Assembly (NCBI GenBank): GCA_003955985.1
Contig: CP033784.1
Location: forward strand, 434,001 to 498,000
Direction: 5' to 3'
Length of the DNA: 64,000 nucleotides
Source: Corynebacterium jeikeium
GTDB lineage: Bacteria; Actinomycetota; Actinomycetes; Mycobacteriales; Mycobacteriaceae
Both the position numbers and the translations under genes were made by a program. The notes beneath the pieces were generated by a model, which had not been told where the DNA came from, ran no database searches, and saw only the letters and a program-made list of their open reading frames with translations. Position 1 is the first letter of the stretch. Each line of letters opens with the position of its first letter. Shown here in pieces: positions 46,871-54,779 of this stretch.

Positions 46871-47190
46871 GCTGCTCTGTTAACTGCTTATGTTCGTGGG
46901 GGAGTGAGGTCACTGTGCGGGGCCTGCGTAAAAGTTACCAGTGTTGCCGGTGTGAAAGTTGGCCCTTTTTGGGGGTTGAAAATTAGTAAAGTCACAAGCT
47001 TTCTTAGATGAAAGTTAGGCGTTCGTGATGATTTCGTTGTAAACTGCCATTCGTCATAGTGACGGCCGCCAAAATGCATTGTGGTCGTTATCAATTTGGG
47101 CAAGATTTAAGTGACTTCAGCTTCTGTGTGGTTGAGCCAGTGGTTCTACACAGAGCGGTCCTTAAGTTAAAACGCAAAGGGATTAACTAC
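46871..47190 (+). promoter_or_regulatory. Upstream region of the SGNH hydrolase gene
   Basis: A 320-bp gene-free stretch after the rplE terminator. The sequence GAAAGTT recurs (TGTGAAAGTTGG near 46951 and GATGAAAGTTAGG near 47007, plus AAAAGTTACC near 46930), possibly a regulator site. No convincing promoter pair was found. Confidence 0.35.
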
Positions 47191-48087
47191 ATGAAGAACT
47201 TCTCCGTGGCCGTCCGCTCGGCTGCTATTGCAACTGTTGCGGCTCTGGGTCTGAGCTTGGGCGCCGGTGCTGCCAACGCACAGCCGGCACTGCCGGAAAT
47301 GCCGAACATTCCGATTCCGGGTATCGGCGACACCGGCCCGAAGGGCGTCAAGCAGATTGTCACCTTCGGTGACTCCTTCACCGCTAATGCCGGTAAGGGT
47401 GGCCCGCGTGGCCTGGCGCCGGGGCAGAACGTGCTGGTCGCTAACTGTGCCACCGACATGGAAAACTGGCCGAAGATTGCAGCGTCGAAGCTGAACAAGT
47501 CCCTGGGTGACTGGTCCTGTAACGGTCTTGGTGGCTTCCCAGGTCAGCTCCTCGCATACCTGGAAGCTTCCATCCAGTACGGCGACATCGGAGAGGGCAC
47601 TGAGAAGGTTGTCCTGATGTACGGCGGCATGGACTGGGTCCAGTGGGTTGACGTGGCAGGCGAGCTTGTCGCAAAGCCGGACCCCAAGGCTCCGTCGTTG
47701 TTTAAGCAGACGCTGCGTCAGTTCACTGACCGCGTTCACCAGGTTGCTCCGGGCGCTCAGGTCGTCCTGGCTTCGTACCCTGAGTACGCCACTGATGACC
47801 AGCTGTGCCTGGTGAACACCCCGAACCAGACCTTCCCGATCCCGGCACCGGGTGCCAGCGAGGTTCAGGGTGCATTCCGTGACAGCATTCGCTCCGCATC
47901 TCAGCACGTAGGTGCCGGCTTCATTGACGTCTACGAGGCAACCCTCGGCCACGGTACCTGCAACCCAAACCCGGATGAGCGCTTCGTCGCTGGTTTCGCA
48001 GATCCGGTGATGGGCCCGATGACCAATCACCCGACGGTGGCTGGCGAAAAGGCTATGGGTAACATCATCGCCGACCAGCTCTACTAA
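47191..48087 (+). CDS. Secreted SGNH/GDSL-type hydrolase
   Basis: 298 residues. A Sec signal peptide (positive start, hydrophobic 10-27) probably ends at ANA|Q near residue 30. GDSF puts the nucleophile at Ser62; block III is GGMDW in place of the usual GxND, and the C-terminal DPVMGPMTNHPT supplies the Asp-x2-His-like pair. The mature enzyme is exported and may be an esterase or lipase acting on lipids or envelope esters. Four cysteines could form two disulfides. ATG 47191 has AAAGG 9 nt upstream. It stands alone between rplE and rpsH with terminators on both sides. Confidence 0.87.
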   Translation: MKNFSVAVRSAAIATVAALGLSLGAGAANAQPALPEMPNIPIPGIGDTGPKGVKQIVTFGDSFTANAGKGGPRGLAPGQNVLVANCATDMENWPKIAASKLNKSLGDWSCNGLGGFPGQLLAYLEASIQYGDIGEGTEKVVLMYGGMDWVQWVDVAGELVAKPDPKAPSLFKQTLRQFTDRVHQVAPGAQVVLASYPEYATDDQLCLVNTPNQTFPIPAPGASEVQGAFRDSIRSASQHVGAGFIDVYEATLGHGTCNPNPDERFVAGFADPVMGPMTNHPTVAGEKAMGNIIADQLY

Positions 48088-50689: not shown

Positions 50690-51136
50690 ATGAGCGAACC
50701 AATTAAGCTCCACGACTTGGCCCCGGCTCCGGGTGCTAAGAAGAAGAAGACTCGCGTCGGCCGTGGTGAGGCTTCCAAGGGTAAGACCGCTGGTCGCGGC
50801 ACCAAGGGCACCAAGGCCCGCAAGCAGGTTTCGGCAGCATTCGAGGGTGGCCAGATGCCACTTCACATGCGTCTGCCGAAGTTGAAGGGCTTCAAGAACC
50901 CGGCGAAGGTCACCTTCCAGGTGGTCAACGTTTCGGATTTGGAGCGTCTGTTCCCGAACGGTGGCGACATCACCATCGCCGACCTGGTTGCAAAGGGCGC
51001 CGTCCGCGCTAACCAGCCGGTGAAGGTCCTCGGCGACGGCGACATCAACGTCTCCGTCAACGTCACCGCAACCAAGTTCTCGGGCTCCGCAAAGTCCAAG
51101 ATCGAGGCTGCAGGCGGCTCTGTCACTGAGGCTTAA
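50690..51136 (+). CDS. rplO: 50S ribosomal protein L15
   Basis: 148 residues; late assembly protein. The Gly/Lys-rich start [20 protein letters not shown] and the central [18 protein letters not shown] are diagnostic. Seven bases after rpmD. secY, its usual neighbour, is 2.3 kb away because the bioWF gene intervenes. Confidence 0.97.
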
Positions 51137-51155
51137 AGCATTTAAGCTTTAACAA

Positions 51156-51188
51156 GAGAGCTCTTAACCCGCGTGGTTAGGAGCTCTC
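51156..51188. terminator. Terminator after rplO
   Basis: GAGAGCTC(T)TAACC and GGTTA(G)GAGCTCTC stem, CGCGT loop, then GTTGTATT. It lies between convergent rplO and bioWF and probably serves both. Confidence 0.8.
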
Positions 51189-51233
51189 GTTGTATTAAGA
51201 GGGGAAGGGGAGAGAGCAGCGCGAACCGCTGGC

Positions 51234-53114
51234 TTACAGCAGGCCGGTATTGCGCAGAGCCCGCTCCAGTTGGTCGATGTCAGCGTCCGTATGGAGCGCG
51301 GTAATGGTCAATCGCAACATTGCCTCACCACGGGGGACCGTCGGAAAGCGAATTGCAGGTATGAACACGCCTAGCTCCGCTAACTGTGCTGAGGTGTCCA
51401 TCGCTACGGTCTCGTCCCCGACGGGCAGCGGGATGATTGCAGATGCGGGGTCTGACTGCGCGCCAACCAGGGAGCGGACGCGCGCAATATTACGTTGCAA
51501 TCGCTTGACGACGTCCCCAACCTCCAACTGCTTCAACGCTGCGCGGATAGCTGCGACAGAACCAGCGTTCATGGACGTTGAGTACACGAAGCTGCGGGCT
51601 TGATTGCGTAGTAGTTCGCCAACTGGTGCCGAGCAGAGAACGTATCCTCCTTCGACACCGAGAGCCTTGCTCGCGGTGCCGACCACAATGTCCGGGCGGA
51701 TGCCCAGGTGCGCTGCAGTGCCACGACCTTGTTCTCCGATAACGCCGACGCCGTGGGCGTCGTCAAGCATCAGCCATGCGTTGCGACGGTGACAGGTGCG
51801 CTCGAGTGCCGGGCCGTCGATGACCTCGCCTGACATAGAGAACACGGAGTCGGAGATGACAAGTTTGTGGCGGGCGCTGGATGTTGCGAGGAGACGGTCG
51901 AGCGTCTGATAGTCAGCGTGCGGAAAGACCGTGACTTTAGCCCGGGCATTGCGGCATCCGTCAATGATGGAAGCATGGTTGGCGGCGTCGGAGAAGATTT
52001 CAACGTCGGCGGTGGCGATGGCTGCGATGGTTGAGTGGTTCGCCTGGTAGCCAGTCGCAAAGAGAACGGCATCGTCGAAACCGAAGAACTGCGCGAGTTC
52101 ACTTTCAAGTGCGCTGTGGATGCTCGTGCCGGTGGTCAGGCGAGAGCCGCCGGACCCGGTGCCGAAATGCCCAATTGCCTCGATGGCAGCTGAGACGAGT
52201 TCAGGGTGCGTGGACAGGCCGAGGTAGTCCGAAGAAGAAAACAATAGATAGTCGGCTCCGTCAATTCGGCTGTGCGGTAGTTGTGCAGTTTCGAAAGTGC
52301 GCAGTGTGCGGGCTAGTCCTGCACCGGCCCAGGCCGTGTTCCTTTGGGCGGCGATTGCTGAGAGGTCGCTGCTGAGGCCGGTGGTGTCCGTCGAGGAGCA
52401 GGCGTCAGCTGGGAGCTCGATATAGACCGGCGTGTTCTCCAGGTAATCGATCAACTCGGGGATATCGGTGCCGGGTTCAACGATAAAAATGCGAGTACCG
52501 AGAGTGCTGCCGTGGTCCTTGATATTGGGGATACGGTGAAAGATTCCGTCCAGTGCGAGATAGCCACGCGTGTAAAAGGGATCGTCGGAGAGGCAGATTT
52601 CTGCGACGATGCCCGGGGCGCTGTGAACCTTGGATGCGAGGATGAGCGCCTCGTGAAAATGGTCCTTGGCACAGTCCTTGCTGGGGTGTGAGATGGCATC
52701 AAAAGTGGAAACCCGTACACCGCGGGCTGGGTTTGGGTCGAGCCGCTCACCGGAGGAGGCATCGATAAGAGCGGCGCCGCGAAGACCCGTGAGTGAATAG
52801 GCCATCTCGACGGCGATATCGGCGGCCTCTATACCTGCAGCGTGTAGGCGTTGAGTAATGAGCTTGCGGGCGTCCCCAGGGCTGGAGTTCGACTCTAGAA
52901 AGGGGACTAACGCCGGCACGGTGCTGATGGTCGACTCTTCGATCTTGTCCACAGTGATGTGAATTGTGTCGGCTCGACCCTTGTCGTGGTGAAGTGCACG
53001 GCTAGTCATTGCAGAAGCCAGCTGAGGTAGTTCGACAACCGGTGCAAGACGCTCAGCGCCAGAGATATGGCAGCCATCGGCGCTGGATCGCATGCGGATA
53101 CTGTAGGTACTCAC
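51234..53114 (-). CDS. Bifunctional pimeloyl-CoA synthetase / 8-amino-7-oxononanoate synthase (BioW-BioF fusion)
   Basis: 626 residues with two enzymes in one chain. Residues 1-235 match BioW (6-carboxyhexanoate-CoA ligase): [41 protein letters not shown], and ASKV...[15 protein letters not shown]. Residues about 250-626 match Bio[45 protein letters not shown] and the PLP lysine in GTASKALG (about Lys483). Together they would turn pimelate, CoA, ATP and alanine into KAPA, the first two steps of the pimelate route to biotin. GTG 53112-53114 fits the BioW start. A BioQ-like operator overlaps the promoter. The gene is inserted between rplO and secY; no other bio gene is nearby. Confidence 0.9.
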
Positions 53115-53125
53115 AGAGCAAAACT

Positions 53126-53138
53126 TTAACACTGTTCA
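53126..53138 (-). promoter_or_regulatory. BioQ-like operator over the bioWF promoter
   Basis: Minus strand TGAAC-AGT-GTTAA, one base different from the TGAAC-N3-GTTAC consensus reported for the corynebacterial biotin repressor BioQ. It overlaps the -10-like TAAAGT (53128-53123), which ends 8 nt before the GTG start. Binding would block transcription when biotin is plentiful. Confidence 0.65.
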
Positions 53139-53447
53139 AGTTTTGTCTGGGAAAATTGGGTGGAGCACAGTGAGGGGCGTGGGCTCAGAGGGGAGGGGGC
53201 GCTGGGATCGTCGTCAAGCGAAAAGAGGTGATTGGCGGGGCGCTGTACTAACGGTGATATGGAGGTGTATTGCGACGATGTGGAGAAACGCTGGTAGACT
53301 CACTACGTCAAATACTGTCAATTAAAGGTTTGAGGAATACGTCATCCGCGTTGCTTAACTAAAACGGGAGACTACTGGCGGATAAGCGGGTAAGTCTTTC
53401 GGGAAAAGCGTGGGAGAAGCGGATTTCTTGACCTCGGGAGGATGCAC
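53139..53447 (+). promoter_or_regulatory. secY upstream region
   Basis: Gene-free stretch of about 310 bp between bioWF and secY. It holds dispersed motif copy 10 and a weak promoter candidate TTGCGA (53270-53275), 19 bp, TAGACT (53295-53300). No conserved short protein was found. Confidence 0.4.
53197..53220 (+). repeat. 24-bp dispersed intergenic motif, copy 10
   Basis: Left half GGGCGCTGGGAT then core CGTCGTCAAGCG, between bioWF and secY. Confidence 0.72.
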
Positions 53448-54779
53448 GTGGCTTCCGGTCTCATTGCGGCGTTGCGCGATCCCGATTTGCGTAAGAAGAT
53501 CTTCTTCACTCTGACGATGATCATTCTGTACCGAATCGGCTCGCAGATTCCAAGCCCTGGTATCGACTACCAGTTGGTCAACGCGCAGCTCGAGCAGATT
53601 TCGAAAGATCAGTCCAGCGTTTACTCGCTGATCAACCTGTTCTCAGGTGGCGCTCTGCTGCAGATGGCGATTTTCGGCATCGGCATTATGCCGTACATTA
53701 CGGCCTCGATTATCGTCCAGCTGCTCACGGTGGTGATTCCACACTTCGAGCAGTTGAAGAAGGAAGGGCAGTCGGGTCAGACGAAGATGACCCAGTACAC
53801 CCGCTACCTCACAGTAGCGTTGGCGTTGCTGCAGTCTGCGGGCATTGTGGCCATGGCAGACCGTGGCGCCCTGCTGGGTGGCTCGCAGTCGCTGCTGGTC
53901 AAGGATGCGGGTGTCTTTGACCTCGTGGTGATGGTCGTTGTGATGACCGCCGGTGCCGTGCTGGTCATGTGGATGGGTGAGCTCATCACTGACCGAGGGG
54001 TCGGCAACGGTATGTCGTTGCTGATTTTCGCTGGTATCGCCGCTGGTATGCCAGCGCAGGGAGCGAACATTCTGCGCTCCACTACCGGTGTCGTGTTCGC
54101 CACCGTGATTGTTGCGGTGCTGATTCTCATCATTGGCGTTATTTTCATCGAGCAGGGGCAGCGCCGTATTCCGGTGCAGTACGCGAAGCGTATGGTTGGT
54201 CGTCGCCAGTACGGCGGATCTTCCACCTACCTGCCGCTGAAGGTGAACCAGGCCGGTGTTATCCCGGTCATCTTCGCATCCTCGCTGATTTACGTGCCGG
54301 TTCTGATCACCCAAATCGTTCAGTCCGGTCAGTCGAATCCGAACATGGACAACTGGTGGCAGCGCAATGTCATTCAGTACCTGCTGGCACCGTCCAGTTG
54401 GCAGTACATTCTGCTGTTCTTCCTGATGATCATCTTCTTCTCCTTCTTCTACACCTCTGTGCAGTATGACCCGCACGAGCAGGCGGAGAACATGAAGAAG
54501 TACGGCGGATTCATTCCGGGCTTCCGCCCAGGGCGTCCGACTGCTGAATACCTGTCCTACGTCCTGATTCGCCTGCTGACTGTCGGCTCGCTGTACCTGG
54601 CGCTGATTGCCGTTCTGCCAAATGTCGCTCTTGATATGGGGCTTGGCGACGCGAACGCCGGTACAGGCGGTATGTTTGGAGGTACAGCCCTGCTGATTCT
54701 GGTCAGTGTTGCGCTGACGACGGTCAAGCAGGTTGAAAGCCAAATGATGCAACGTAACTACGAAGGGTTCTTGAAGTAA
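53448..54779 (+). CDS. secY: Preprotein translocase subunit SecY
   Basis: 443 residues, ten membrane helices; the protein-conducting channel. [32 protein letters not shown] and [16 protein letters not shown] are signatures, and the plug region follows helix 1. GTG 53448 is preferred because GGGAGG lies 6 nt upstream; ATG 53442 directly abuts that site. The stop overlaps the adk start (TAATG). Confidence 0.96.

Follow-up and report, generated by a model that had tools for sequence, protein, structure and literature searches.

The locus raises the question of what a single long reading frame with motifs of two biotin enzymes does within a ribosomal gene cluster, and from where it could obtain its substrate. 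In the window (the whole stretch of 64,000 nucleotides analysed), an earlier note, made from the sequence, had seen one 626-codon frame with a BioW part followed by a BioF part between rplO and secY, and had left undecided whether such an architecture had been described. Frame reading and Pfam bear out the frame and its two parts, the flanking genes confirm its position, and the architecture was described and assayed in 2022 (PMC9544090; cited throughout, like PMC3398298, PMC8733736 and PMC12915131, from the part of the text available). The gene is therefore real but largely known, and what is new here would be comparative points on its putative BioQ switch, its evolution and its likely reliance on external pimelate. 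The features of the locus are collected below.

Features of the bioWF locus, in window positions
Feature	Position	Strand	Basis and remarks
bioWF coding sequence	51234..53114	-	one unbroken frame of 626 codons + TAA stop, GTG start; frame, match to active CaBioWF construct, conservation
BioW (pimeloyl-CoA synthetase) domain	52401..53114	-	residues 1-238 of 626; Pfam BioW, alignment with 5flg and 5tv5
Linker	52350..52400	-	17 residues between the aligned domains
BioF (8-amino-7-oxononanoate synthase) domain	51237..52349	-	PLP lysine Lys483; Pfam, NCBIfam, solved relatives, alignment
BioQ-type operator TGAACAGTGTTAA	53126..53138	-	one mismatch to TGAAC-N3-GTTCA; its end lies 11 nt upstream of the GTG start
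Putative -10 hexamer TAAAGT	53123..53128	-	overlaps the operator; by eye; transcript possibly leaderless
Terminator-like hairpin	51156..51188	+	between convergent rplO and bioWF; folding z -5.07 for 51134-51215

No frameshift or stop separates the two halves, and the frame is intact in its relatives. Both halves exceed the Pfam gathering thresholds, BioW (PF03744) with 230.8 bits against 25 over residues 10-238 and Aminotran_1_2 with 179.4 bits over residues 294-625, both counted in a 632-residue reading. In NCBIfam, bioF TIGR00858 is the top model in the library with 383.6 bits over residues 274-626, below its cut-off of 426.45, and the bioW models NF002360 (217.7 bits, cut-off 226) and TIGR01204 (148.8 bits, cut-off 193.55) are likewise matched below their cut-offs. 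The nearest solved structures are AON synthases for the BioF half and 5flg and 5tv5 for the BioW half; the window protein keeps the BioW residues that its relatives conserve, and the PLP lysine Lys483, which is Lys484 in the numbering of PMC9544090, is present in 44/44 alignment rows. The assayed orthologue CaBioWF is 95% identical to the window protein in the BioW domain and 97% in the BioF domain.

The frame is open upstream to a GTG at 53132, which gives the 632-residue reading and falls within the BioQ-type operator. The annotated CaBioWF gene yielded a BioW half that was inactive until the seven residues MSTYSIR were added (PMC9544090). The GTG at 53114 gives V-STYSIR, matching the N-terminus of that active construct, and the equivalent position holds GTG in all seven genomes with bioWF between rplO and secY and ATG in G041, G062 and G119. 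The construct and the GTG/ATG conservation both support the start at GTG 53114.

The gene order rplO - bioWF - secY is common to the window's genome (G000), G098, G101 (strain SK46), G034, G153, G001 and G056. Around the locus, the DNA matches that of SK46 at 97.5% identity along 8.8 kb and that of G098 at 97.1% along 8.9 kb, and the window therefore derives from a close sister species of C. amycolatum. As the architecture is intact and in the same place in six other genomes, bioWF is not a sequencing artefact. None of 20 other Corynebacterium genomes checked carries bioWF within 1.5 kb around rplO, secY following 238-1098 nt after in 10 of them and lying beyond the stretch taken in the other 10. 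Fused genes outside this group have serA-like and leuB-like neighbours in G191 and G155, pantoate ligase and PorA genes in G170, and two-component and LuxS genes in G013. Between rplO and bioWF, the hairpin is brought out by its folding score, and a hairpin pattern scan alone was non-significant (one found, 1.6 in shuffles). The ribosomal cluster of the window also holds, at 47059-48087 between L5-like and S8-like genes, a frame that by eye resembles a GDSL-type secreted hydrolase. In addition, a record titled C. vitaeruminis 1285_CVIT (L003) shows a C. amycolatum-type rplO-bioWF-secY order with a bioWF 85% identical to the window's, and its species label may merit a second look. A plasmid origin of bioWF was also considered and rejected, since the 702 matching records hold no close relative, all being below 60% identity.

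Based on these findings, we propose that the gene almost certainly encodes a bifunctional BioWF, orthologous to the characterised CaBioWF and with its reactions. First, the N-terminal BioW domain would convert pimelate, ATP and CoA to pimeloyl-CoA; then the C-terminal, PLP-dependent BioF domain would condense pimeloyl-CoA with alanine to 8-amino-7-oxononanoate, which would proceed to biotin via bioA, bioD and bioB, located elsewhere in the genome. These three genes are all recognised over their cut-offs, bioA with 534 bits, bioB with 354 bits and bioD with 94.5 bits over 83.3, and so is BioY with 106 bits. An ABC ATPase gene and a CbiQ-like gene adjoin bioY, the ATPase reaching 187.6 bits, below the NCBIfam ECF cut-off of 315.

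With respect to the source of pimelate, the genome holds seven BioC matches, all below the cut-off, and no cytochrome P450, and hence no BioI (the control search found the P450 family in 7/14 genomes). BioZ carries a FabH-type domain, and the genome has no match to that domain, ACP_syn_III_C, which the control search found in 11/14 genomes. Contrary to the earlier note, which had the fusion restore the early pathway, that pathway is not restored as a whole, as bioWF only uses pimelate and neither a BioC over cut-off nor a P450 nor a FabH-type domain accompanies it. PMC8733736 reports no FAS-II genes in any of the Corynebacterium strains that it examined, and therefore a FAS-II-based pimelate route does not fit. 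Because no recognised pimelate-making route was found, we infer that bioWF salvages pimelate, and its substrate would probably be pimelate or a related diacid taken from the surroundings. Alternatively, an endogenous route of an unrecognised kind could supply pimelate and make the organism a full biotin prototroph, and the retention of bioA, bioB, bioD and bioWF with similar boxes upstream would suit such a de novo pathway; however, with BioC below cut-off, P450 and ACP_syn_III_C absent and FAS-II lacking in the strains of PMC8733736, this alternative appears unlikely, if still worth keeping in mind beside salvage.

A second question is how strictly the enzyme would select its acid. In BsBioW, Tyr199, Tyr211 and Arg213 hold the far carboxylate (PMC9544090). 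In our alignment with 5flg, Phe192 of the window protein falls opposite Tyr211, the second tyrosine, while Tyr181 and the Arg two residues after Phe192 are retained; PMC9544090 is itself discrepant here, its figure legend equating the Phe with Tyr211 and its text with Tyr199. The Phe is said there to relax specificity, and the same residue occurs in the active, broad-scope CaBioWF, whose BioW step in vitro accepted C6-C10 mono- and C6-C9 di-acids, an unexpectedly broad range, and whose BioF step accepted Ala, Ser and Gly (PMC9544090). Across the 44-row alignment, Phe192 occurs in 7/7 members of the rplO-secY clade and in 0/37 other bioF-linked BioW proteins, all 37 of which have Tyr, including eight fused proteins and 26/26 aligned separate pairs. 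Since Tyr192 is found in eight fused proteins outside the clade, relaxed specificity is predicted to be a trait of the rplO-secY clade rather than of fusion.

Outside that alignment, the fused bioWF of G096 and G166 is immediately preceded by a standalone bioW (L143:5993-6637 and L142:5856-6500, both on the minus strand). These paralogues also have Phe at 192, which runs counter to the simple story, and in them Phe occupies both the BsBioW Tyr199 and Tyr211 equivalents, Ala replaces a cysteine found in 44/44 aligned rows, and no BioQ box with up to two mismatches lies in the 150 nt upstream; they may activate other acids.

The in vitro scope of CaBioWF, with the Phe192 shared by 7/7 clade members, could also be read to mean that BioWF is mainly a broad acyl-CoA/alpha-oxoamine synthase whose products are aminoketones different from AON, biotin synthesis being secondary. 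However, all seven members retain the BioQ box despite diverging flanks, bioA, bioD and bioB are present in the genome, bioWF is the sole match to its own protein there, and the neighbours are ribosomal and secY-region genes, so that a main role outside biotin synthesis is improbable.

The sequence TGAAC-N3-GTTCA is the predicted BioQ site (PMC3398298). The earlier note had proposed a BioQ-like box over the -10 region, and the box lies exactly where it was placed, over a putative -10 hexamer, with further support from cross-genome comparison. When 150 nt upstream were examined, a box with at most one mismatch was present in 35/46 Corynebacterium bioW-bearing loci, exact in 15 of them, and absent in 11/46, the latter including the fused loci of G191, G155, G166, G096, G013, G122 and G076; after single-base shuffling of the upstream stretches, 50 times for each of 48 loci, the rate was 0.58%. 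Within the rplO-secY clade, the overlapping hexamer is TAAAGT in 6/7 members and TACAGT in the seventh, and a sigma-70 consensus scan of 51000-53500 returned no promoter. The candidate operator is thus significant by cross-genome comparison and non-significant on the window alone, where three sites with at most one mismatch compare with 1.71 expected and 26/100 shuffles reach three. A chance origin of the 13-bp box, with bioWF constitutive or otherwise regulated, could draw on this chance-level frequency in the window and on an uninformative whole-genome scan with a loose pattern (337 matches, 173 forward and 164 reverse, where the reversed pattern used as control gave 250), but is scarcely credible given 35/46 loci against 0.58% expected and a box at -24 to -22 in 7/7 clade members, identical in 6/7 while the flanks diverge.

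Because the loose scan was uninformative, the upstream regions of known bio genes were examined instead. In the same genome, TGAACAGTGCTCA precedes bioY and CGAACGGCGTTCA precedes bioA, the start codons of these two genes being presumptive and hence the box-to-start distances too, and two further boxes, TGAACCCTGTTCG and, with two mismatches, AAAACAGTGTTCA, fall between bioB and the TetR gene that diverges from it. Another one-mismatch box, TGAACAGTGTTCC (L128:1999-2011), precedes a frame of 249 codons whose product resembles, by eye, a secreted proline/aspartate-rich protein. The TetR protein encoded beside bioB (L126:1937-2632) has 5yej, 5xs9 and 5yek as its best solved relatives, with 108-109 bits against 67 for the next; the structure table labels these three only as TetR family transcriptional regulators, and we take them to be Mycobacterium smegmatis BioQ. 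NCBIfam gave no BioQ model match for this protein. The genome thus has bioA, bioB and bioD together with a BioQ-like TetR gene. In the proposed control, a TetR-type BioQ would repress bioWF when biotin is ample by sitting on the box over the -10 hexamer of a probably leaderless promoter, and this BioQ step is, judging from the comparisons above, very likely.

How the fusion arose was followed in 201 genomes, an even sample from a larger group, of which 87 gave any match and 48 were read at the sequence level. Among the 48 loci, 15 are fused, 27 have separate frames, four share a frame interrupted by a single stop (G159 among them being partial and broken) and two show BioF only in the stretch taken. 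Linkers across the 15 fused loci range from 27 to 114 nt. In the related genomes G041, G062 and G119 (L136, L137, L138), bioW and bioF share a frame with a single TAG between them, and the codon after the TAG, the presumptive bioF start, is GTG in G041, ATG in G062 and GTG in G119. The joint tree has 44 rows, G159, G165, G066 and G092 being omitted since they lacked either a complete W or a single F segment. Changes of the fused state number four on the BioF tree, five on the BioW tree (in which G092_W1 represents a portion of an interrupted bioW rather than a standalone paralogue) and four on the joint tree, where the fused rows are spread over four groups: the seven rplO-secY members; G191 and G155; G170, G166 and G096; and G013, G122 and G076. 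A topology with all 15 fused rows in a single clade was rejected (AU p 0.0021), and with it a single ancestral fusion in that form. The change counts would fit fusion and splitting alike; a single fusion with several later splits may also account for the pattern, and several branches are long.

Two further variants were seen among these loci. The fused frame is longer in G013, G122 and G076, at about 720 codons (L144:3752-5911), with no BioQ box of up to three mismatches in the 150 nt upstream. In G092 (L165:685-2826), about 1.4 kb of other sequence interrupts bioW; the close relative G051 has the gene in one piece.

Taken together, a tentative and speculative picture may be drawn for Corynebacterium without FAS-II: biotin synthesis could be an import-fed, BioQ-switched salvage whose entry enzyme was fused more than once, after which the rplO-secY BioW could have lost its far-carboxylate tyrosine and relaxed its specificity apart from the fusion, possibly for host-surface diacids other than pimelate. 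The work settles what an unusual gene within the ribosomal cluster is and saves others from discovering it anew, and predicts that these bacteria need external pimelate. Within a single genus, naturally occurring pairs and fusions offer material for testing what fusion does, and a single residue, position 192, may separate fusion from promiscuity. What the earlier note observed is correct and its interpretation is largely so, but the system is already known, and the additions made here would be comparative.

Among known systems, the closest counterpart is CaBioWF (C. amycolatum SK46, UniProt E2MUP3), also mentioned in PMC12915131, which was purified as a homodimer and assayed, forming pimeloyl-CoA with a KM of 58.6 uM and a kcat of 0.21 s-1 and giving an AON product detected by mass spectrometry, so that both activities and their coupling were demonstrated (PMC9544090). 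A structural model in that paper has a possible tunnel and suggests channelling of pimeloyl-CoA. The window BioWF shares with it the locus, the start, Phe192 and 96% protein identity, and differs in coming from a sister species and in the residues behind the two domain identities given above. The available text of PMC9544090 holds no description of the locus or the regulation of CaBioWF, and the open-licence literature searched yielded no treatment of BioQ control of bioWF, multiple fusion or the spread of Phe192. Compared with the separate bioW-bioF pairs of Corynebacterium, the fused gene has the same two domains, gene order and, mostly, BioQ box, whereas the pairs encode two polypeptides in different frames and have Tyr at 192. 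C. glutamicum ATCC 13032 is reported to lack BioF (PMC3398298). Desulfosporosinus orientis belongs to a phylum other than that of Corynebacterium. Its BioWF, from the Cronan group, is cited in PMC9544090 as an earlier BioW-BioF fusion that was reported to complement a bioF mutant of E. coli supplied with pimelic acid. With regard to regulation, the BioQ regulon of actinobacteria has the same TGAAC-N3-GTTCA box and the same placement of a TetR gene beside bioB, as in Nocardia, Rhodococcus, Propionibacterium and Mycobacterium (PMC3398298). However, bioQ is unclustered with bio genes in four Corynebacterium genomes according to that paper, whereas the TetR gene in the window's genome stands divergent from bioB.
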